In this document: one piece after another, positions 15,977-26,269 of the stretch
How positions within the stretch are numbered: position 1 is the stretch's first letter
Layout: every line of letters begins with the position of its first letter
Assembly: GCA_018675335.1 (NCBI GenBank)
Contig: JABGYH010000005.1
Span: 1-64,000 of the forward strand
Source: Candidatus Woesearchaeota archaeon
Lineage (GTDB): Archaea; Nanobdellota; Nanobdellia; Woesearchaeales; UBA11576
DNA length: 64,000 nt
Direction: 5' to 3'
Program-made: the position numbers and the translations under genes
The notes under the pieces: generated by a model
Seen by the model: only the letters and a program-made list of their open reading frames with translations
Database searches by the model: none
What the model was told of the DNA's origin: nothing

Positions 15977-16031
15977 TACAACTACATTGACAGTTAATTG
16001 CCAGATATTTCTAAGTAAAATACAAGTATAC
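15977..16031 (+). promoter_or_regulatory. 44-bp-spaced operator pair, GESR operon
   Basis: TACAACTACAT at 15977 and TACAAGTATAC at 16021 start exactly 44 bp apart. The segment 16007-16031 (25 bp) is identical to 18780-18804 before the next operon. The AAGTAAAAT inside it may be the TATA element; that puts the start near 16045 and leaves a leader containing GCGGAGG before ATG 16074. Confidence 0.65.
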
Positions 16032-16073: not shown

Positions 16074-16607
16074 ATGAAATCAATTCGAGACTTAAAAAGC
16101 ACATACGACGGAGCAGATATAGCTAATTTAGTAGAATTCGCAAGCAGAGCTCCAATTATGTTACCCCCAGGAAACTATCATCTTGAAAAAAAAGGAAATA
16201 CTGCCCACGTATATGAACAAACAGGAATTAATAATTATAATATTGTAGACTTACCTCCTGGATTAAGTATTACTGGATTAAAAAATACAACTCAAGGTAC
16301 TGAAATTAGATTATCTTCAGGAGAAGGCTTAGGTGGAGTTGAATTAATCATCCTACATTCTATGCCTCATAGCAGGACAACCAATACAGGCACAACATAT
16401 TCTCAAAATAGATCTGCACCTACAAACTATGGCGAAAGTAGACCTAGTAGTTTAGGCGAAAGTAGACCAAACACCAATTTAGGAGAAAGTAGAGCAAGTA
16501 GTTTAGGCGAAAGTAGAGCAAGTAGTTTTGGTGAATCTCGACCAAGTAAACCTTCACGAAGTTATGGATGTGGCGAATCAAGAAGTAGTGGAGAATCTAG
16601 GTGGTAA
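16074..16607 (+). CDS. GESR-repeat protein, possible modification substrate
   Basis: Not a family I recognise. Residues 1-100 look like a compact beta-rich domain (APIMLPPGNYHLEKKGNTAHVY, GTEIRLSSGEGLGGVELIIL). A Thr/Ser/Asn-rich linker follows, then residues 120-176 hold seven copies of GESR at spacings of mostly 8-9 residues (PSSLGESR, ASSLGESR, ASSFGESR), one preceded by Cys. Ribosome site GCGGAGG. Only 3 bp separate its stop from the radical SAM gene, so they are co-translated. The leader-plus-repeats layout resembles repetitive precursor peptides whose cores are enzymatically altered; the alternative is a simple adhesive or binding repeat protein. Confidence 0.5.
   Translation: MKSIRDLKSTYDGADIANLVEFASRAPIMLPPGNYHLEKKGNTAHVYEQTGINNYNIVDLPPGLSITGLKNTTQGTEIRLSSGEGLGGVELIILHSMPHSRTTNTGTTYSQNRSAPTNYGESRPSSLGESRPNTNLGESRASSLGESRASSFGESRPSKPSRSYGCGESRSSGESRW
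16431..16604 (+). repeat. Imperfect 24-27 bp tandem repeats coding for GESR units
   Basis: Seven in-frame GESR units. The central ones share GGCGAAAGTAGA at DNA level, while the last ones use GAATCTCGA, so protein sequence is kept although codons have drifted. This suggests selection on the encoded peptide rather than recent DNA duplication alone. Confidence 0.7.
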
Positions 16608-16610
16608 AAA

Positions 16611-17975
16611 ATGAAAGTTCTAGTTATTAATCCACCAAACATGCCATTTAGTGAAAAAAGTTTGCTAATTGAACCAATCGATGTTTTAACAGTTGCAACT
16701 TTTATTCAATCATCAAATAACACAGTAAAAGTAATTGATATGGATGTAAAAAAGTTAGCACCAAAACAAATAAAACAAATAATAAAACAATTCCAACCTG
16801 AATTAACTATAATTCCTTTTGATTATCATATTCCTTTGCACACATCAAATGCAGTTAAAGGAGTTAATATTATTTCAAAAATTGCAAAAGATAATAATTC
16901 CAAAGTTATTGTAGGTGGAAAAACTCCAAAACATAAACCAGAATTATTTTTAAGAAATTATGCAGACATAATTATCAATACAGAAATGGAACCTGTGTTA
17001 AAACAATTAATCGAAACTAATTTTCAAAATTTAAAACAAATTCAAGGCATCAGTTATTTAGAAAAAAATAAATTAAAAATCAATATTTCCTGCTGTAAAA
17101 AAATAAACTTAGATTCCTTGCCAGTACCAGATAGATCTTTAATTGATATAACTGATTATATTGAAGTTAGAACTATTCTTTCAAGCAGAGGTTGTTTTGG
17201 GAAATGTGGTTTTTGTGCGACACCTAATTTTTGGGGATGTTGGAGAGCAAAATCTGCTGAAAATGTAGTAAAAGAAATTGAATATTTAATACAAAAATTT
17301 AATGCGAAAAAAATTCTTTTTCTTGACGACAATGCAACTGTTGATAAAGACAGAATGAAACAAATATCTAAATTATTAATTCAAAAAAATATCAAATGTA
17401 AATTTGGTTGTTTAGGTACAATTTCAACTTTTGATATAACTACTATGAAACTTATGCATCAAGCAGGTTTTAGGTGGATTCATTATGGTTGTGAATTTGC
17501 AAGTCAAAAAGTTTTAGATAGCTTAAAAAAAGGAATAACTCCAGATCAAATCAAAAAAACAATAATAGAAACAAAAAAAATTGGTTTTCGAGTAAGAACT
17601 AGTTGGATTTTTGATCTTCCCAATGCAGATGAAAAAGGATTAAAAAATACAATAGAATTAATTTTAAAAACTCAACCTGATGAAATTCGTGCTCATTTTT
17701 TAGCATTAAGAGTTGGAAGTGAATACAATTCAAAAACTAATTGTTTAAAACAACAATATATCCACAACTCAAAACCTAATGAAGAAATTAAAAGAGATCT
17801 CAACATAAAAACAATTCAAGAAAATTTAGACATTTTAATCAAACAACTCATAAATAAAAATTATGTGTTAGTTAAAAATGTTAAAGATTGGAGGAATGTA
17901 AAAAAACTTCAAAACAAAAATAAATCAGTAAAATTCATTTCATTATGTCCATCACGATATGGAGTTTGTTGGTAA
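16611..17975 (+). CDS. B12-binding-type radical SAM enzyme
   Basis: A 454-residue enzyme. Residues 1-145 form a Rossmann-like cobalamin-binding-type domain (LVINPPNMPFSEKS, VIDMD, KVIVGG, ADIIINTEMEPVLKQL) but without the DxHxxG cobalamin ligand motif. The radical SAM core follows with SSRGCFGKCGFCATP (Cys-x3-Cys-x2-Cys) and typical downstream text (ILFLDDNATVDKDRM, IHYGCEFASQKVLDSLKKGI). The C-terminus has two more cysteines (CPSRYGVCW). Such enzymes often methylate or rearrange unreactive carbons. Its immediate upstream partner is the GESR-repeat gene, which is therefore the natural candidate substrate (inference). Confidence 0.8.
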   Translation: MKVLVINPPNMPFSEKSLLIEPIDVLTVATFIQSSNNTVKVIDMDVKKLAPKQIKQIIKQFQPELTIIPFDYHIPLHTSNAVKGVNIISKIAKDNNSKVIVGGKTPKHKPELFLRNYADIIINTEMEPVLKQLIETNFQNLKQIQGISYLEKNKLKINISCCKKINLDSLPVPDRSLIDITDYIEVRTILSSRGCFGKCGFCATPNFWGCWRAKSAENVVKEIEYLIQKFNAKKILFLDDNATVDKDRMKQISKLLIQKNIKCKFGCLGTISTFDITTMKLMHQAGFRWIHYGCEFASQKVLDSLKKGITPDQIKKTIIETKKIGFRVRTSWIFDLPNADEKGLKNTIELILKTQPDEIRAHFLALRVGSEYNSKTNCLKQQYIHNSKPNEEIKRDLNIKTIQENLDILIKQLINKNYVLVKNVKDWRNVKKLQNKNKSVKFISLCPSRYGVCW

Positions 17976-17992
17976 ATTTAGGTTGAAAAAAA

Positions 17993-18691
17993 ATGAGATT
18001 AGATTCAGAATTAGTTCAAAAAATAAATTCAAGTAAATATGTTTTAGGCGTAACTGGAAGTATGTCTTGTGGAAAAAGTTATGCATGCGATCAACTTGAA
18101 CAAATAGCAAAAGATTCAAACATTCAAGTTTACAAAGTTAATTTTGATTTAATGCGAAGAGATATTTTAGGAACAAATCCTAAGTATGAATCTGCAAGAC
18201 AAAGTTTAGAAGATGTATTTGGCCCGCAAATTAGAAAATCAGATAATAGCATAGATAGAACAATTCTTTCGCAATTAATTTATTACGATTCGAATGCAAT
18301 GGCCCAATATGGCGCACAATTAGCTCCTCACCTCAAACAATATCTGGATTGCGAACTAACAGATAGATCGGGAATAATTCTCGTTGAATGGGCATTACTA
18401 GTAGAAGATCAACTTCTAGATTTAGTTAATTATAATGTTCTATTAGTAACCTGCACGCATAATGCTCAGATGAATAGATTAAAAGATGGAGACTTATCGC
18501 AAAACGAAATTAAAAAACGCATTGCAGCTCAATTAACTAACGAACAAAAGAGATCAGAAATATTGTTACAACAAAAAGAAGCGCAAAAAAATGGAATGAA
18601 CGGGGAGTTGCATTTATTTGACACAACCAATGATCCTTCTACCCCCAATTATGAGTCATTATTTGGTAAAATTCTTTCAAAAGTAGCTTAA
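17993..18691 (+). CDS. Dephospho-CoA kinase-like P-loop kinase
   Basis: A 232-residue P-loop kinase. GVTGSMSCGKSYACDQL is a Walker A; the pattern VNFDLMRRDIL...FGPQI...IDRTILSQLIYY...IILVEWALLVE follows CoaE text (D-hV, FG, IDR..L, hhh..PLL.E). It differs from the standard CoaE by a longer middle and by Ser-Cys in the P-loop. A separate CoaE domain is fused to CoaD at 56.5-57.7 kb, so this copy may phosphorylate a different nucleotide-like substrate. It lies 17 bp after the radical SAM gene, third in the GESR operon. Confidence 0.65.
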   Translation: MRLDSELVQKINSSKYVLGVTGSMSCGKSYACDQLEQIAKDSNIQVYKVNFDLMRRDILGTNPKYESARQSLEDVFGPQIRKSDNSIDRTILSQLIYYDSNAMAQYGAQLAPHLKQYLDCELTDRSGIILVEWALLVEDQLLDLVNYNVLLVTCTHNAQMNRLKDGDLSQNEIKKRIAAQLTNEQKRSEILLQQKEAQKNGMNGELHLFDTTNDPSTPNYESLFGKILSKVA

Positions 18692-18749
18692 ACACAAGTA
18701 TGTTGCAGTTTCAACACATATAACCTTGATTTAATTCTCAAAAACATAA

Positions 18750-18804
18750 TACAACTATACGGACACATTTACATCAGAAATTTCTAAGTAAAATACAAGT
18801 ATAC
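18750..18804 (+). promoter_or_regulatory. 44-bp-spaced operator pair, radical SAM/SPASM operon
   Basis: TACAACTATAC at 18750 and TACAAGTATAC at 18794, again 44 bp apart. The second copy ends 12 bp before ATG 18817. If the AAGTAAAAT at about 18786-18794 serves as TATA element, the mRNA is leaderless, which agrees with the missing ribosome site. Confidence 0.65.
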
Positions 18805-18816
18805 ATATATATTAAG

Positions 18817-19803
18817 ATGGAACTTAATATACAAACAAACGACACTCAAACCAACCAACCAAGTTTGGAAAATTATTCTTTTTGTCTTTTCAGAATACCT
18901 AAAGAAGGAGGCAGAGTTTTATGGGAAATAACCAACTCTTGCAATTATAGTTGCTCTTATTGCATATTCAGTGCAAACAAAGGAAAAGTTAATGGAGAAC
19001 TATCAACAGAAGAAGTTTTTGAAGTAATCGACGGTTTAAAACAAAGAGATTTCTCACATCTAAAAATATCAGGAGGCGAACCATTCATTAGAAAAGATAT
19101 GGTCGACATCCTAAAAAAAGCTTCCGACTTAGGTTTTATTGTAGATATTTCAACTAATGGTTCATTAATTACAGAGAAACGTGCTCAACAATTAAGTGAA
19201 TTAGAACTAAATATGGTTCATGTAAGTTTAGATGGTCCTGATGCTAAAACTCATGAAGAAGTTAGAGGTCCAAAAACTTATGAAAAAACAATTAGAGGAA
19301 TTCAAAATCTCGTAACCAATAATGTTTATGTTAGACTCGGAACTGTAATCCACAAAGGAAATGAACACCAGTTAGAAGAAGTAGTAAAAAAAGCTGCAAG
19401 TTTAGGAGTTAATGAAGTTATTTTTTCTTACATGGAACCTGTTGGGCGAATGGAAGGAGACAATAGTCAAGTTTCATACAAACCAATTGAAACAACAAAA
19501 TCAGAAATTGAAATATTAGCACAAAAATATCAAGATCAGGTAAAAGTTAATTATAGTTTTACAGAAGATTCTCAATCTGAAGAAACTGGAACTTGCCCTG
19601 GTGGAAAAAAATTCTTGTTCATAGACAATCTGGGAAGAATTTCACCTTGTACATGGGTTACTGAAAAAGATCCAACTTACCAAACTAGCCTGACGGTTAA
19701 AGATGCTAGTTTCGACGAGGTTATGACATCAAATCCAATGCAAAATTATGTGGAAAGCTGTAAAGATTGTAAAGGATGTCCTGCAAGAATAAGATATGAA
19801 TAA
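18817..19803 (+). CDS. Radical SAM enzyme with SPASM-like C-terminus
   Basis: Core motif WEITNSCNYSCSYCIF (Cys-x3-Cys-x2-Cys), then KISGGEPFIRKD, STNGSLIT and SLDGPDAKTHEEVRG, standard for PqqE/MoaA-like radical SAM enzymes. The C-terminal region has CPGGKKFLFIDNLGRISPCTWV and CKDCKGCPA, a SPASM/twitch-type auxiliary iron-sulfur site as found in peptide-modifying enzymes. Its stop overlaps the next gene by 8 bp. In an operon with aminocarboxypropyl-transferase-like, ATP-grasp and methyltransferase genes it most likely modifies an amino acid or peptide, but the substrate is not visible. Confidence 0.82.
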   Translation: MELNIQTNDTQTNQPSLENYSFCLFRIPKEGGRVLWEITNSCNYSCSYCIFSANKGKVNGELSTEEVFEVIDGLKQRDFSHLKISGGEPFIRKDMVDILKKASDLGFIVDISTNGSLITEKRAQQLSELELNMVHVSLDGPDAKTHEEVRGPKTYEKTIRGIQNLVTNNVYVRLGTVIHKGNEHQLEEVVKKAASLGVNEVIFSYMEPVGRMEGDNSQVSYKPIETTKSEIEILAQKYQDQVKVNYSFTEDSQSEETGTCPGGKKFLFIDNLGRISPCTWVTEKDPTYQTSLTVKDASFDEVMTSNPMQNYVESCKDCKGCPARIRYE

Positions 19804-20875
19804 ATTTTCAAAAAAAAATACCCAAAAAAAAATGGAATCAAAAAAACAAAGTTTAGAAATGAGAATAAATCAAGAAGAAGTTTCAGCTCAAGTTGAATCA
19901 TTATTTCAAGGAAATCTTGAAAAAAATCTGATGTCAAGTGGTAAGTTTAGTTCTTTTTGTCCAACTTATTCATTCGCTACTGAAAATCTTACAGGATACA
20001 TGTCCCAAATAGACTTACAAAATAAACGAGTTTTAACAGTTAGTGCTTCAGGAGATCAAATAATTGAAGCTTATGCAATGGGCGCTACAGAAGTAGAAAG
20101 TTTTGACATAAATATTTTAAGTGCGTTTGTTACCGACTTGAAATTGACCGCAGTAAAAACATTATCTTTTGAAGAATATCAAAAATTTCTACTAAGACAA
20201 GATCAAAATAATCCAAATCAATTAAATTCTCAAGCACTAAATAAAAAAACATATTTAAAACTAAGATCTCAACTTAATGATTCAACTCAAACTTTTTTTG
20301 ATAATCTATATCAATTATTTCAAGATGGATCTCAAATAAGAGAAAGTCCCATTTTTAACAATCAATATGACACTAATCAACTAAAAACATTCAGCAACAA
20401 ATATTTACAAAGCAAACATTACTACGAACAAGCACAATTAAATTTACGAAAAGGACAAATCCCTAGTTGGACTTGCTCAAGCGTTACTGAACTTACTAAA
20501 AATTTTACTGACGAAAAATTTGATGTGATTCTTCTTTCAAATATTGCAGATTATGCAGAGGCAATGTTTCCAAATAATTCAAATTATATTCAAAAATTCA
20601 TAAAACAAGTAATTCAACCACTAGTTCCAAAACTTAATCCTCGAGGAATTATTTGTGCGGCTTACGTTTATGACATAAAAACAAAACAAACTCAAGATAC
20701 AAATCAAACATATAGGAGTCAAATTGATAATCCTTCAATTCGAAGGCAGGAATTACAGTCAACAAGATTAGATTATCAAGAACTTGTTTTTCCAAGTGTA
20801 CTACCACTAGTTCAAGATGGAGTAATCATCTTAACTAATTCTGAATTAATGTATCAAGGTGAACTACGATGTTAA
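19796..20875 (+). CDS. DUF3419/BtaA-like 3-amino-3-carboxypropyl transferase candidate
   Basis: A class I SAM-binding fold: KRVLTVSASGDQIIEAYAMG followed by EVESFDINILSAFVTDLKLTAVKTLSFEEYQKFL. This string matches the pattern of the DUF3419 family, which includes BtaA (transfer of the aminocarboxypropyl group of SAM to diacylglycerol). Late in the protein come KFDVILLSNIADY and NPRGIICAAYVYD. Residues 1-45 are polar, lysine-rich and unlike the core. It overlaps both neighbours (8 bp and 7 bp). A plain methyltransferase is the alternative; the lack of any lipid gene nearby argues for a non-lipid acceptor. Confidence 0.6.
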   Translation: MNKFSKKNTQKKMESKKQSLEMRINQEEVSAQVESLFQGNLEKNLMSSGKFSSFCPTYSFATENLTGYMSQIDLQNKRVLTVSASGDQIIEAYAMGATEVESFDINILSAFVTDLKLTAVKTLSFEEYQKFLLRQDQNNPNQLNSQALNKKTYLKLRSQLNDSTQTFFDNLYQLFQDGSQIRESPIFNNQYDTNQLKTFSNKYLQSKHYYEQAQLNLRKGQIPSWTCSSVTELTKNFTDEKFDVILLSNIADYAEAMFPNNSNYIQKFIKQVIQPLVPKLNPRGIICAAYVYDIKTKQTQDTNQTYRSQIDNPSIRRQELQSTRLDYQELVFPSVLPLVQDGVIILTNSELMYQGELRC

Positions 20876-21897
20876 ATGAAACTGAATTACAAGGATTACA
20901 CACAAATCAAAGATTATTAATTATTGAACTTCAAAACAGAGGAATTAATGTTAACTCTCTTGTTCCCGAAATGGAATTAGTTGAAGCAGAATATCACGGC
21001 CATAAAGAATTCATTCTTGACCGAGATTCATCAATTAATCCCTATCCTTCAACAGTCATTAGTGGAGACAAATATTTGTCAAAAAAGTTATTAGCTCGAG
21101 AAGGAATTAGCGTTGTTAGTGGTGAACAATTCGATGGAATTCACCAAAATGAAGCTTTAGTTTACGCACAAAAATTAAACTTTCCTTTGGTAGTCAAACC
21201 AGTTTTTGGATCACATGGTCATGGAGTTTACATGGATTTAGATAATCTGTGCGATGTTAAAGATGCAATTGATAAAATTAGTGGAGAATATGGATCTAAC
21301 AAAACATACTTGGTTGAAGAACAATTTGAAGGAAAAGAATATAGAGTTTTCATAACTCAAAATGGAGATTATGCAGTTCTTCACAGAGATTGTGCGCACA
21401 TCATAGGAGATGGAACTAAAACAATCGAACAATTAGCAAATCAAGAATCTGAAAATAGAATGACTGAATCAGACGATCCATCATTTCCAAGAAAAAATTG
21501 TCTTTGTCCAGTTCAACTTGATGAGGTTGTTAATAATTATCTTGCACGCCAACAAAAAGATACAAATTATGTTCCGCCAGAGGGTGAAAAAATTTATCTT
21601 AGACATAATTCAAATGTGGCAGTCGGAGCTACTTGTGAAGATTATACTGATATTGTTCACCCCTCAATTATTGAAATTGCAAAAAAAGCGCTAAACGCAT
21701 TTCCAGGATTACCTTATGCAGGATTAGATTTTTTATCAAAAGATATTACTAAACCACAAACTGCAGATATGTATAGATTATTAGAAGTAAATTCAATTCC
21801 AGGAATACATATGCACATGAGACCTGGAACTGGAAAATCTCAAAATGTTGCAAAATACCTTGTGGATATGATGTTTCCAGAAACTAAATATTCATAA
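20869..21897 (+). CDS. ATP-grasp ligase of the cyanophycin synthetase/GshAB type
   Basis: ATP-grasp enzymes join a carboxylate to an amine via an acyl phosphate. Readable elements: STVISGDKYLSKKLLAREGI, FPLVVKPVFGSHGHGV, TYLVEEQFEGKEYRVFI, AHIIGDGTKTIEQL (the GDGxxTIxxL motif of the CphA/GshAB ligases), and the metal-binding end YAGLDFLSKDI...YRLLEVNSIPGI. The 342 residues cover little more than the ATP-grasp unit, so substrate recognition is in this domain or in partners. The ribosome site AGGTGAACTACG lies inside the preceding gene, which it overlaps by 7 bp. Confidence 0.78.
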   Translation: MLNETELQGLHTNQRLLIIELQNRGINVNSLVPEMELVEAEYHGHKEFILDRDSSINPYPSTVISGDKYLSKKLLAREGISVVSGEQFDGIHQNEALVYAQKLNFPLVVKPVFGSHGHGVYMDLDNLCDVKDAIDKISGEYGSNKTYLVEEQFEGKEYRVFITQNGDYAVLHRDCAHIIGDGTKTIEQLANQESENRMTESDDPSFPRKNCLCPVQLDEVVNNYLARQQKDTNYVPPEGEKIYLRHNSNVAVGATCEDYTDIVHPSIIEIAKKALNAFPGLPYAGLDFLSKDITKPQTADMYRLLEVNSIPGIHMHMRPGTGKSQNVAKYLVDMMFPETKYS

Positions 21898-21930
21898 ATT
21901 AATATAATTAAATATGAGGCTAACAGAAAA

Positions 21931-22722
21931 ATGAACGAAAAAACAAACAACGAAAATAATAATAATAAAAACTCTAATAAAACTAAAGATTTAATCAAAA
22001 AAAATAAATTAGATTCAGAACCACAAAATCAAAATAGTAATCTCGGTGAAGGTTCTAAAAGTTATCATGAAGAAGCAGATATTTATGAACGTTTTAGTCA
22101 AGTTGAAGATTCTCCTAAAAAAATTCTAAACTTCTTAAAACCACTAATTGAAGGTAAAAAAGTTCTAGATCTTGGTTGTGGTACTGGAAAATTCATGATT
22201 GATTTAGCGCACGTTTCAAAAGAATATGTGGGACTTGATATTTCAAAAGATCAATTAAACATTGCAAAAAATAAACTTATTAAAAATAACATAAATAACG
22301 TAAAATTAATTCAATCATCTGCGGAAAATATACCTCTTGAATCTAATCAATTTGACGTAATTATTTCAACGTGGGTTTTAGGCACAATTCAAGATGAATC
22401 TCGTCGAGAAAAAGCAGTTTCAGAGGCGCTGCGTTTGTTGAAAACAGGGGGATCCACCTATTTAGTTGAAAATAACAGCGGAGGGGACTTTGAAGTAATA
22501 AGAAATAGATTCCCAAATAAAGAAAGAACAGAAAAATATAATTCATGGTTGTTAAATCATAAATTTATTGTTGAAATTGAGTTTAATACCTATTTTGAGT
22601 TTAATAATTTAATTGAAGCTCAAAAGATTTTTGAACATATTTGGGGTAAAACTGCTATGTCCAAAATTAAATCAAATAGAATTAAACAAAAAATAATAAT
22701 TTTTAAACAAGAAAAAAAATAA
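21931..22722 (+). CDS. Class I SAM-dependent methyltransferase
   Basis: Core motifs KVLDLGCGTGKFMIDLA (SAM binding), YVGLDISKDQLNIAKNKL and FDVIISTWVLGTIQDE place it in the Methyltransf_11-type family. The first 45 residues are Asn/Lys-rich and poorly structured. No catalytic residue reveals the acceptor. It lies 33 bp after the ATP-grasp gene as the last member of the operon and probably methylates the same product (N- or O-methylation). Confidence 0.8.
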   Translation: MNEKTNNENNNNKNSNKTKDLIKKNKLDSEPQNQNSNLGEGSKSYHEEADIYERFSQVEDSPKKILNFLKPLIEGKKVLDLGCGTGKFMIDLAHVSKEYVGLDISKDQLNIAKNKLIKNNINNVKLIQSSAENIPLESNQFDVIISTWVLGTIQDESRREKAVSEALRLLKTGGSTYLVENNSGGDFEVIRNRFPNKERTEKYNSWLLNHKFIVEIEFNTYFEFNNLIEAQKIFEHIWGKTAMSKIKSNRIKQKIIIFKQEKK

Positions 22723-22732
22723 AACTAATTTT

Positions 22733-23590
22733 TTATTTCATCCCAGTATATTTATGTAATCCTTCCAAAGAATCAATTCTTTTTTTTGCAGGAAGGGCTA
22801 ATTGAAATTTTTTCCAAAAAACTTGTTTGATCCATTCAACCCACTCAGGATCATAAATAGAATAATAAACTCCCAAAATCTTTTTATCTTCTCCTTTTTT
22901 CCCTGCAGGTACTTTTATTTCAGAAAATTTTGCAATTTTTCCATCAATAATGTATGCGCGCAAAGGAGTTATTTCGTGTTTTACTTGAACCATTTCTTTA
23001 CCCATTTGAATATTGATTGCAAGTATATCTCTTAAATTTTTCAAATCAAGTAATGCCACATTAGTAATTATTTTAAAAATTACTCCTCGCTTCACTGCAT
23101 CGCGAACAGAATCAAGTAATGTTCGTCCATCATGTTTTAAGTGAATCCAAGAATTGTTTCCAGAAAACGCTAATACTTCTTCTTCTGCATTATCTATCAA
23201 GGGAAATAATGTTTCTGCATTGTATTGATAATTAGGAGTTATTTCTTCAAAATATCCATCTCTTTTTTCAGGATCTACATATTGATAAATTTCTATTGGA
23301 GAAAAATCATTTTTTTCTATTCCTTTTTCCATTTGAGCAAAAAGTTTTTCTTGTATATCCGTTGCATAAATTTTTTCGAGATTATTCCAAAAAACAATTT
23401 TAAGTGCGCCTCTTGATCCTTCTCTAAATACTCGCATTTGTATGTGACCAGTTCTTTTACTTATTTCTTCAATATACCGATCAGCAGTTCTCCAGTTTTT
23501 CCCAAGCATTTGAGCAATTTCATTTACTGCTCTGGGTTTTGCATAAACAAACGCTTTGATTTTATCTATAGTTTTATTATCAAGGACCAT
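22733..23590 (-). CDS. HTH transcriptional regulator with PLD-like sensor domain
   Basis: Residues 1-60 form a winged-helix-like DNA-binding domain (VYAKPRAVNEIAQMLGKNWRTADRYIEEIS). Residues 120-260 carry the PLD-like fold seen in TrmB-type effector domains (EEEVLAFSGNNSWIHLKHDGRTLLDSVRDAVKRGVIFKIITN, AYIIDGKIAKFSEI), without a full HKD motif, so sensing rather than hydrolysis is likely. Leftward TATA GATTTATATATAAAC at 23624-23638 and ribosome site GAGGTG before ATG. It diverges from the CinA operon and is the best local candidate to bind the 44-bp-spaced motif pairs. Confidence 0.7.
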   Translation of the reverse strand: MVLDNKTIDKIKAFVYAKPRAVNEIAQMLGKNWRTADRYIEEISKRTGHIQMRVFREGSRGALKIVFWNNLEKIYATDIQEKLFAQMEKGIEKNDFSPIEIYQYVDPEKRDGYFEEITPNYQYNAETLFPLIDNAEEEVLAFSGNNSWIHLKHDGRTLLDSVRDAVKRGVIFKIITNVALLDLKNLRDILAINIQMGKEMVQVKHEITPLRAYIIDGKIAKFSEIKVPAGKKGEDKKILGVYYSIYDPEWVEWIKQVFWKKFQLALPAKKRIDSLEGLHKYTGMK

Positions 23591-23702: not shown

Positions 23703-23801
23703 TAACATAACATGAACAAAAAATCACAAAGTAAAAGAACTTACTTAGGAGTGGTAAAAAACGTTAAGTTTATAAATAGAAGATCACTGGAGGAATATAA
23801 G

Positions 23802-24668
23802 ATGGCATTACAAGAAATAATTCAATCACAATCAAAATTAGTTAAAAGCTACGCACATAAATTAGGTGCAGCTCACAAAAACGGATATGATTTAGCGCAA
23901 GAGCTTTTCAAACCATACACTGAGGAACTTGCAACAAGAGTAGAAGATCAACTTGCACAAAAAAAAGAATCAGGAGAATGGACTGCATTAATTGACGCAG
24001 CAAATGCAGATTTAACCGCTTGGAAAGAAGAATCTGGAAGAATTCAAAGATATACTCCCGAAGAACTTGCACAAGCAAGATTACAAAAAGAAGTTGCAAA
24101 CGAATACTCAACTGAAAAAAGTGGAGAACTAGCACTAGTAAATCAATTTCATCAAGCAATTATTTCTTATGCAATTCAAAATTTAGGTGTTGCAACAGAA
24201 TTAATCAAAGAAGGAAAATCTAAAAGAAAGTTTGCAATTGTTGAATTAATTTCAAGACTTGCACCCTCACTTAATTTTCCAGGATCATCAAGTTATTTAA
24301 CCGGCGCATTTGTTCCTTATGCAAGAGAAGCAAGAACTGTTTTAGGAGAATCAACACCTACTGGATCTTATGTTCAACCAAGCGTTGCAGTTGAAAGCGC
24401 ACATAATTTAATTCTTCAATTTGAAGTTAGTTATGCTCTAGCAGAAACTAGTGCAGCACCGCGTTCTGATGTTCCAAAATCAAAAAGATTACCTGAAGTT
24501 CACATTTGTAGTGTTGCTAATGGAACTAATGACCCGGAAGCTCAAGCCATGCAAACTCAAAAACATGAAATTCCAACTCACTTTAGAGAAGAATTCGACT
24601 CTGCAGTAAGAGAATTAATGTTCAAAGAATTAGTTTCAATGTATCAAATTGAATTAAATGTTGATTAA
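23802..24668 (+). CDS. CinA C-terminal (PncC-like) domain protein
   Basis: The middle of the protein, FPGSSSYLTGAFVPYAREARTVLGES...PSVAVESAHNLILQFEVSYALAETS, follows the CinA C-terminal domain, whose active members (PncC) deamidate nicotinamide mononucleotide. The usual ESxTGG motif just before PGSS is not recognisable and the downstream lysine is arginine, so activity is doubtful. The N-terminal 100 residues are helical and unrecognised. ATG 23802 is chosen because GGAGG lies at 23789-23793; ATG 23712 would add 30 residues and would suit a leaderless message 9 bp after the operator. First of three NAD-type genes. Confidence 0.55.
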   Translation: MALQEIIQSQSKLVKSYAHKLGAAHKNGYDLAQELFKPYTEELATRVEDQLAQKKESGEWTALIDAANADLTAWKEESGRIQRYTPEELAQARLQKEVANEYSTEKSGELALVNQFHQAIISYAIQNLGVATELIKEGKSKRKFAIVELISRLAPSLNFPGSSSYLTGAFVPYAREARTVLGESTPTGSYVQPSVAVESAHNLILQFEVSYALAETSAAPRSDVPKSKRLPEVHICSVANGTNDPEAQAMQTQKHEIPTHFREEFDSAVRELMFKELVSMYQIELNVD

Positions 24669-24670
24669 AA

Positions 24671-25159
24671 ATGGCAAATCGAAAAAAAGTTTATGATTCC
24701 AGGGGACATGATAATCCAGGAAATGGCGTTGGAGTTATAATTCCAAATCCAAATAATCCTGATGAAATTGTTATGACTCTTAGAACTGCAGAAACAACAA
24801 ATAGTGCAGGAATGTGGGAACTTCCAGGAGGAAAACAAGATCTTTTTGAAACAATATATCAAGCAGGATCTCGCGAAACATTTGATGAAGTAGGTTTAGA
24901 AGTTTGCATAAAAGGTTGCATAGATATTTGCGATTTACGAATTGAAGGACAACATTGGATGAACTATACTGTTGTTGCAGAAGTTAAAGGTGGAGAATTA
25001 ACTAATAAAGAAGACTTAAAATTTGATGAAGTAAGATATATGAATATTCACGAACTTCCAGAAAATACTGCTCTCCTTGCAATCAGAGGAATCAGAAATT
25101 ATATTACAAAAAGACAACATTTAGAATATATTTTAATTGAAACAGTTGTTCAAGATTAA
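24671..25159 (+). CDS. Nudix hydrolase
   Basis: The Nudix box is readable as GGKQDLFETIYQAGSRETFDEVGL (G-x5-E-x7-RE-x2-DE-x-G), with Asp replacing the first Glu of the EE pair. Preceding text GMWELPGGKQ and VVIPNPNNPDEIVMTLRT-like strands are typical of the fold. Length 162 residues. It starts 2 bp after the CinA-like gene and precedes an NMNAT-like gene, so a role in hydrolysing NAD-type or other nucleotide diphosphates is plausible. Confidence 0.82.
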   Translation: MANRKKVYDSRGHDNPGNGVGVIIPNPNNPDEIVMTLRTAETTNSAGMWELPGGKQDLFETIYQAGSRETFDEVGLEVCIKGCIDICDLRIEGQHWMNYTVVAEVKGGELTNKEDLKFDEVRYMNIHELPENTALLAIRGIRNYITKRQHLEYILIETVVQD

Positions 25160-25192
25160 TAAAAAAAAAATAAAAAATAAAACAGACCCAAA

Positions 25193-26269
25193 ATGAGACT
25201 ATCAAAAACAGATGTATTAAGATCAATAAAAAGGTACAACCAAGAAGTTAGGTTAAAAGAACTTAGTGCACAAGGAATTCATAAACTTGTACTTACTACA
25301 GAACCTGATCGAGAACGAGATGAAGTTGGAAAAGTAGTTATTGCTTTCGGTTCATACGATCCATTAACTATAGGGCATGTTAATTTATTTCTAAGTGGTC
25401 TCGACGCAGTAGAAGATAAAGAAGCCACTCGCGGATCTGAATCATTAGATGAATTAGTTATTGCAACGAGTACATCACATATAGATAAACAAATCAATTT
25501 AATGCGAAATTCAACAATTTCTGATAGAGTTCATGCACAAGAAGGTTTTGCTGATGCACTCGATAATGTTAGTTTAGCATTTACAAACACTCCTTTTTTC
25601 ATAGATTTAATCCCATTATTTGAACAAAAATATGGAAAAGATGTTGATCTTTATTTTTTAGTGGGAGCAGATGTTATGGAAAAAATTGTTGATCCAAAAT
25701 CATACGAACGCCACGACAAATCTATTGATGAAGTTTTACCCTCATTATTTAGACATAATTTTATTGTTTGTGAACGTCAAGTTCAATACAAAAATGAAGA
25801 AGGAGAAGTAACATCTGAAAGATATCTTAACCGAGATCTTATTCTTGCAGAACATCCGGAAATATCTAAATATACAAAAAAAATGCTTCCAGTAGATCTT
25901 AGAGATAATGAATACCCTGACTTAGAAATTTCTATTTTGGAAGTGAGTTCGTCACTTGTTAGAAAATTAAGGGGAAACGGAAATGAAACTCAATCAGATG
26001 AAAATTCTGCTCCTTGGAAAAAATTAGAAGCAGTAGGAATTAGTGATTTTGTAGATAAACGTTCATTGTATATGAGAGGAAGTGAAAAATACAAAGCAAT
26101 TGTGGCCTTAACTCGTGCGTATGCAGATCATTTTAGACCTAAAGGAGTTCAACCATTACAATATATTAATGCATTAATGCAAGATCTAAGACACGCAGAC
26201 GAAGATAGCGAATTTAGAGATCATGTTATCAGAAGTTATGACGCAGGAATTCCATTAGTTAAAAAATAA
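25193..26269 (+). CDS. Nicotinamide/nicotinate mononucleotide adenylyltransferase-like protein
   Basis: A nucleotidylyltransferase of the HxGH superfamily: VVIAFGSYDPLTIGHVNLFLSG (TxGH variant), YFLVGADVMEKIVDP (as in NadD), and ILEVSSSLVRKLRG (the ISSTxIR motif). At 358 residues it is much longer than NadD (about 200), with insertions around residues 80-95 and 160-220 and a 60-residue helical C-terminal extension. Adenylylation of a mononucleotide is the likely reaction; NAD synthesis is the natural guess from CinA and Nudix neighbours, but specificity is not proven. Confidence 0.68.
   Translation: MRLSKTDVLRSIKRYNQEVRLKELSAQGIHKLVLTTEPDRERDEVGKVVIAFGSYDPLTIGHVNLFLSGLDAVEDKEATRGSESLDELVIATSTSHIDKQINLMRNSTISDRVHAQEGFADALDNVSLAFTNTPFFIDLIPLFEQKYGKDVDLYFLVGADVMEKIVDPKSYERHDKSIDEVLPSLFRHNFIVCERQVQYKNEEGEVTSERYLNRDLILAEHPEISKYTKKMLPVDLRDNEYPDLEISILEVSSSLVRKLRGNGNETQSDENSAPWKKLEAVGISDFVDKRSLYMRGSEKYKAIVALTRAYADHFRPKGVQPLQYINALMQDLRHADEDSEFRDHVIRSYDAGIPLVKK

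Follow-up and report, generated by a model that had tools for sequence, protein, structure and literature searches.

The window analysed here is a stretch of 64,000 nucleotides from a Candidatus Woesearchaeota archaeon (contig JABGYH010000005.1, positions 1 to 64,000), and our subject is a gene cluster that it carries at 16074-22722. We think it probable, on the strength of sequence comparison, that this cluster is a pathway resembling those for ribosomally synthesized and post-translationally modified peptides (RiPPs), in which a 177-aa repeat protein would be the substrate of six enzymes. As a whole it is most aptly seen as a candidate for a new class of RiPP-like systems that modify GES(R) repeats, common to DPANN archaea and bacteria.

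The whole set of genes, or part of it where a contig ends, is present in 13 loci: six from DPANN archaea, six from Bacilli-type bacteria and one from a further bacterium. A repeat protein is encoded in all 13 and carries (G/S)ESR motifs in 12; in those 12 the (G/S)ES(R) unit occurs two to nine times per protein, as against shuffle means of 0.1 or less. Across the loci the enzymes are constant, the scaffold and the side on which the repeats lie vary, and (G/S)ES(R) is kept: this pattern makes the repeat protein the likely substrate. That the same set of enzymes recurs beside a repeat gene in unrelated bacteria suggests, in addition, that the GESR motif is what they modify. We strongly infer, therefore, that the substrate would be a peptide. 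Two hallmarks of RiPPs are found together here, namely a putative precursor encoded with its presumed modifying enzymes, and a scaffold or leader separable from a core with conserved candidate modification sites. The features of the cluster, all on the forward (+) strand, are as follows.

16008..16031 (+): 24-bp promoter/operator-like element (TTTCTAAGTAAAATACAAGTATAC), copy 1, upstream of the precursor gene
16074..16607 (+): 177-aa precursor-like protein (open reading frame call), with a conserved N-terminal scaffold or leader of ~100 aa and a repeat C-terminus
16611..17975 (+): B12-binding-type radical S-adenosylmethionine (SAM) enzyme (Radical_SAM 1e-18; B12-binding 7e-7, just below cut-off)
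17993..18691 (+): CoaE-like P-loop kinase (CoaE Pfam 2.2e-18; TIGR00152 61.1 bits, cut-off 65.55)
18781..18804 (+): 24-bp promoter/operator-like element, copy 2, identical, upstream of the second putative transcription unit
18817..19803 (+): radical SAM/SPASM-type enzyme, single-auxiliary-cluster-like (Radical_SAM E=3.8e-29)
19796..20875 (+): BtaA-family (DUF3419) protein, predicted 3-amino-3-carboxypropyl (ACP) transferase (PF11899, structure model)
20869..21897 (+): ATP-grasp ligase, RimK-type, 342 aa, related to the ATP-grasp part of cyanophycin synthetase and GshAB
21931..22722 (+): class I SAM-dependent methyltransferase (family match E=3e-23)

The repeat protein and its presumed enzymes

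The C-terminus of the 16074 protein is rich in Ser and Gly and holds seven GESR motifs, its final residues being GESRW; in 2000 shuffles the mean count was 0.04 and the maximum two. The protein matches no significant Pfam, NCBIfam or PHROG family, a fold search with the predicted structure of its scaffold gave no significant match, and the repeats are predicted by the structure model to be disordered. Homologues are present in the other archaeal loci, and a search of the order (353 genomes) gave five precursor matches, each of them within a cluster. From one repeat to the next a gene uses different synonymous codons, with both AGY and TCN for serine, which points to selection on the peptide and not to recent duplications of DNA. 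In archaea the scaffold forms a small domain of mixed alpha/beta type, in Bacilli a coiled-coil-like stretch; the repeats are C-terminal in archaea and in the bacterial genomes G525-G527, N-terminal in G648 and G679, and at both ends in G717. The G679 precursor (L088 8093-8740, - strand) contains a tandem duplication of a ~37-aa cassette (GESRISSESRGLSYADWLKT...).

An earlier note on this DNA had singled out the four genes at 18817-22722 as an overlapping biosynthetic operon. Open reading frame calls confirm four forward-strand frames, with overlaps of 8 bp (18817-19803/19796-20875) and 7 bp (19796-20875/20869-21897) and then a 33-bp gap before 21931-22722. Orthologues recur in 13 genomes from two domains, so the arrangement is not due to chance; the four genes also stay together in relatives, which the note had made a test of its proposal, and its reading of them as a biosynthetic unit is supported. 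The genes were thus rightly chosen, but the unit extends further than proposed, reaching upstream to 16074 and taking in the repeat-bearing precursor-like protein. This upstream half (16074-18691) supplies three further genes of the system: those for the repeat protein, the B12-binding radical SAM enzyme and the CoaE-like kinase. Both gene groups are preceded by the 24-bp element, a shared promoter/operator-like sequence. With three or fewer mismatches allowed, neither the window nor the 1.7-Mb genome as a whole holds any copy beyond these two, and none is expected by chance (100 shuffles of the window).

The note had further taken the 19796 protein to be an aminocarboxypropyl transferase-like enzyme, allowing that it might prove to be an ordinary methyltransferase. 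Its family assignment is to BtaA/DUF3419 and to none of the ordinary methyltransferase families, so that it passes this test too: the protein matches PF11899 with E=1.2e-9 (38.3 bits, cut-off 28.2 bits), and all ten family members match with E<=0.01, the G528 member lying below the cut-off. The fold comparison that the note proposed did not decide the matter. An AlphaFold model (predicted local distance difference test score 78) has a class I SAM-dependent fold with a large insert; searches with it returned only generic class I SAM-dependent matches (NNMT-like, query template modelling score 0.3-0.4), and the fold therefore does not separate ACP transfer from methyl transfer. No solved relative was found by sequence search of the PDB, and a first scan of genome contigs with the BtaA-like protein alone gave no match.

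DUF3419-like proteins also occur apart from the clusters. The genome G387 has three further paralogues (L061, G387:C55, 6124-8020, - strand, and G387:C137), two of them directly downstream of its cluster, and the cluster-bearing Bacilli genome G525 has a second, solitary gene (L108 6539-7507, G525:C1). Solitary proteins of other DPANN genomes, outside any cluster (L017, L018, L019 and L020), carry SN(I/V).NY instead of SNI.DY.

In the B12 radical SAM family the CxxxCxxC motif and 70-odd residues are invariant across nine loci, and the 16611 enzyme has a conserved C-terminus, (C/V)P.(R/K)Y....W; wherever a locus is not truncated by the end of its contig, a member of this family is present. B12 radical SAM enzymes are a large family, many members of which are C-methylases. 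In G679 the gene is split between two frames (L088 10994-12324, - strand), through a frameshift or an assembly error. Invariant residues of the kinase family comprise Walker-A G19, T21, G22, G27 and K28, together with D52, R55 and R162, and also W133 and D167. The SPASM match of the 18817 enzyme is weak (18.9 bits, below the 21.5-bit cut-off). Its family, whose members are 45-65% identical, retains the radical SAM cysteines C42, C46 and C49 and the auxiliary-type C23, C260 and C278, with C321 present in nine of ten members; so few auxiliary-type cysteines suggest a single auxiliary cluster. The nearest NCBIfam model to the 20869 protein is cyanophycin synthetase (1.5e-65, far below the equivalog cut-off), and its ATP-grasp domain matches 7wac (E 6e-58) and GshAB 3ln7 (E 1e-45). 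Orthologues of the 21931 methyltransferase occur in 12 of the 13 loci, the thirteenth ending first.

Distribution and gene order

Besides the window, archaeal loci were found in G002 (a Woesearchaeota metagenome-assembled genome, MAG, of the same genus), G141 (Woesearchaeota MAG), G248 (Pacearchaeota MAG), G274 (Nanoarchaeota MAG) and G387. A genome scan with the SPASM alignment added the Bacilli/Tenericutes MAGs G525-G527 and the bacterium G528, and a family search added the Bacilli-type G648, G679 and G717. Gene orders are given below, with P for the repeat protein, B the B12 enzyme, K the kinase, S the SPASM-type enzyme, T the BtaA-like protein, A the ATP-grasp and M the methyltransferase.

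Window: P-B-K, S-T-A-M
G002: S-P-B-K-T-A-M
G141, G387, G525, G526, G527: B-K-S-T-P-A-M
G679, G717: B-(K+S fused)-T-P-A-M
G528: B-K-(S+T fused)-M-P-A
Contig-end loci: G248 S-T-A-M...P; G274 K-S-T-P; G648 S-T-P-A-M

The repeat-protein gene usually lies between the genes for the BtaA-like protein and the ATP-grasp. Both kinds of fusion, kinase-SPASM in G679 and G717 and SPASM-BtaA in G528, were confirmed by Pfam. Only scattered genomes carry the cluster (5 of the 353 in the order, 5 of the 193 in the Bacilli family), and in the respective genome searches the strong BtaA-like matches and the five ATP-grasp matches all fall in clusters. Trees of single enzymes commonly split archaea from bacteria, as would be consistent with a module inherited as a unit, and in most the window pairs with G002. 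In the ATP-grasp tree the cluster clade stands apart from solitary relatives in small-genome bacteria, G528 grouping weakly; these cyanophycin-synthetase-like relatives were rejected as members of the system because the other cluster enzymes were not found alongside them. Viral contigs held no ATP-grasp relatives, and plasmids and phages only distant homologues.

Several flanking genes were considered. A winged-helix-turn-helix-like protein (22733-23590, - strand) adjoins the cluster in three archaeal loci; since members of its family occur widely in the order (62 of 338 genomes), it was rejected as a core member, although it is possibly a regulator, if not a dedicated one. The neighbours at 23712-26269, common only to the same-genus G002, were likewise rejected. 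In G141 proteins that look similar by eye flank the cluster on both sides (L016 3711-4520 and 10928-11707, both - strand), and perhaps mark an insertion unit.

A possible route and its alternatives

What might the six enzymes do? In the scheme that we tentatively put forward – one to which we give somewhat less than an even chance – the BtaA-family enzyme places ACP on the serines of GES(R), and the other five convert each unit to a complex, non-natural residue. The N-terminal domain of the 177-aa protein would serve as scaffold or recognition part, and the seven C-terminal GESR units as modification sites, each acted on by all six enzymes. Transfer of ACP from SAM to the Ser hydroxyl would be the most economical assumption, given that BtaA alkylates a primary alcohol and that, apart from the GES serine, no primary alcohol in the core is invariant. 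The methyltransferase may then methylate the amine so introduced, or act elsewhere. The closest relatives of the cluster's ATP-grasp ligate amines to carboxylates, and one of them, cyanophycin synthetase, acts on the side chain of Asp; amide formation by the ATP-grasp may, speculatively, take place at the ACP carboxylate or at the side chain of Glu. The K+S and S+T fusions suggest neighbouring steps: the kinase might act near the SPASM step, and the SPASM enzyme just before the BtaA-like one. To the two radical SAM enzymes we would assign, again speculatively, C-H chemistry at Glu, Ser or Arg, for instance C-methylation or crosslinking.

A number of observations weigh against a RiPP-like pathway built on ACP transfer. 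The DUF3419 alignment spans only about positions 6-151 of 385, the SAM-binding third, and the 19796 family lacks full-length similarity to BtaA; the predicted ACP transfer is in consequence an assignment from family. Archaeal and bacterial scaffolds share a resemblance of 14 aligned residues that is not significant (hhalign E 0.03, probability 1.5%), and common ancestry of the two was dropped as evidence. The candidate precursor of G528 has GES motifs without the R, from which GES looks to be the minimum motif. No RiPP recognition element was identified, no search aimed at one having been made. Finally, no peptidase or exporter is common across the loci: one of the 13 has one, a C39-peptidase ABC (ATP-binding cassette) transporter gene following the methyltransferase gene in G679 (L088). 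Transporters of this kind are typical exporters of RiPPs and bacteriocins. A stand-alone C39-like reading frame lies ~7 kb from the cluster in L061.

An alternative is that the peptide is only a carrier: the repeat protein would be a scaffold on which a small molecule or cofactor is made, to be excised as a few atoms from each GESR unit and released, after the manner of peptide aminoacyl-tRNA ligase (PEARL) pathways, LysW-type carriers, or pyrroloquinoline quinone (PQQ) and mycofactocin. Six tailoring enzymes are much chemistry to spend on a four-residue motif for a simple peptide, relatives of the SPASM-type enzyme in our searches include the mycofactocin and PQQ maturases, and there is no conserved exporter. 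Yet there is no conserved hydrolase for release, the proteins bear two to nine repeats instead of one C-terminal attachment site, and PEARL and LysW homologues are absent among the cluster-gene matches; we regard a carried product as unlikely.

The earlier note had itself favoured a free molecule, metallophore- or opine-like, with a betaine lipid of BtaA/BtaB type as a second option. ACP transfer, amide ligation and methylation would suit a free ACP compound, and the known substrate of BtaA is no peptide; the GESR protein would then be a bystander, a storage protein or a metal-binding one. It is difficult to reconcile a bystander with linkage in 13 of 13 loci and with motifs conserved in otherwise unrelated scaffolds. 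Nor are there CntL/nicotianamine-synthase or opine-dehydrogenase homologues among the Pfam and NCBIfam matches of the cluster genes, on which ground a metallophore or opine cluster was set aside, or any metal transporter in the neighbourhoods inspected; such a product is improbable. Against both a free compound and a lipid stand also the B12 radical SAM enzyme and the CoaE-like kinase, which the loci add unless cut by a contig end. For a betaine lipid, made by BtaA and BtaB on a lipid alcohol, there speak DUF3419 membership, the adjacent methyltransferase and the reported sufficiency of BtaA and BtaB for the bacterial lipid (PMC10685587); but these two require no radical SAM enzymes, kinase or ATP-grasp. 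Moreover, the DUF3419 similarity is partial, a peptide gene is always in the cluster and it is with a radical SAM/SPASM enzyme that the BtaA-like protein is found fused. We consider a lipid product very improbable, and continue with a modified repeat protein as the preferred interpretation.

Relation to known systems

Our search of the literature agrees with the earlier note in finding no described class with this combination, and the class is apparently undescribed; no ACP/DUF3419 enzyme or dephospho-coenzyme A (dephospho-CoA) kinase in RiPPs, and no GESR precursor, was found in papers under open licence, a scope that leaves novelty unproven. The classes listed in an account of genome mining for archaeal RiPPs are YcaO, radical SAM, lanthipeptide and lasso, and ATP-grasp enzymes go unmentioned in it (PMC12144867). 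For BtaA-family ACP transferases a review of SAM chemistry from 2023 gives no peptide substrate, nor any homology of BtaA to the other ACP transferases (PMC10491745). Should our interpretation hold, there would be a peptide-modification class whose enzymes include two not before tied to peptides, the BtaA-family transferase and the CoaE-like kinase; the same intact pathway would exist in archaea and bacteria, and tiny host-dependent archaea would have a natural product of some complexity, or a modified protein. Because the motif is repeated, mass spectrometry could test the hypothesis directly.

The characterised DUF3419 member is BtaA, a diacylglycerol 3-amino-3-carboxypropyl transferase (PMC10685587). 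The likeness comprises a Pfam match above cut-off and an adjacent class I methyltransferase, as in BtaA/BtaB; the difference lies in a match limited to the SAM-binding third and in partners that are a peptide gene and radical SAM enzymes, not lipid genes. The ATP-grasp domain resembles that of cyanophycin synthetase and GshAB, but the 342-aa protein is the ATP-grasp region only, with neither the Mur-ligase-like nor the GshA domain, and it is not placed among cyanophycin synthetases. The kinase shares its P-loop and catalytic Asp/Arg positions with dephospho-CoA kinase (CoaE) and scores above the Pfam cut-off, whereas it falls below the TIGR00152 equivalog cut-off, and two genomes have it fused to a radical SAM enzyme; identity with dephospho-CoA kinase was accordingly rejected.

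A loose functional parallel to the proposed ACP transfer, methylation and amidation is found in diphthamide, although the enzymes are not homologous: there, radical chemistry by Dph1-Dph2 puts ACP from SAM on a His of EF2, and methylation and ATP-dependent amidation follow. Assignment to the sactipeptides or ranthipeptides was rejected, given that Cys is not conserved in the repeat-protein cores and that about three auxiliary-type C-terminal cysteines stand against the seven of SPASM. Multi-core RiPPs whose synthesis involves SPASM or B12 radical SAM enzymes together with ATP-grasps, graspetides included (PMC8939145), are alike in having a precursor encoded among the enzymes and a scaffold with a repeated core. 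Alike too are the radical SAM/SPASM enzyme, the ATP-grasp, sometimes a UbiE-like methyltransferase and, in one present locus, the C39-type exporter. Graspetides proper have ring motifs of Thr, Glu and Asp (PMC8939145), whereas the core here is GES(R) and the ATP-grasp is nearest to cyanophycin synthetase and GshAB, for which reasons membership was not accepted; and beyond what it shares with the multi-core RiPPs the present cluster has a CoaE-like kinase and a protein of the BtaA family.

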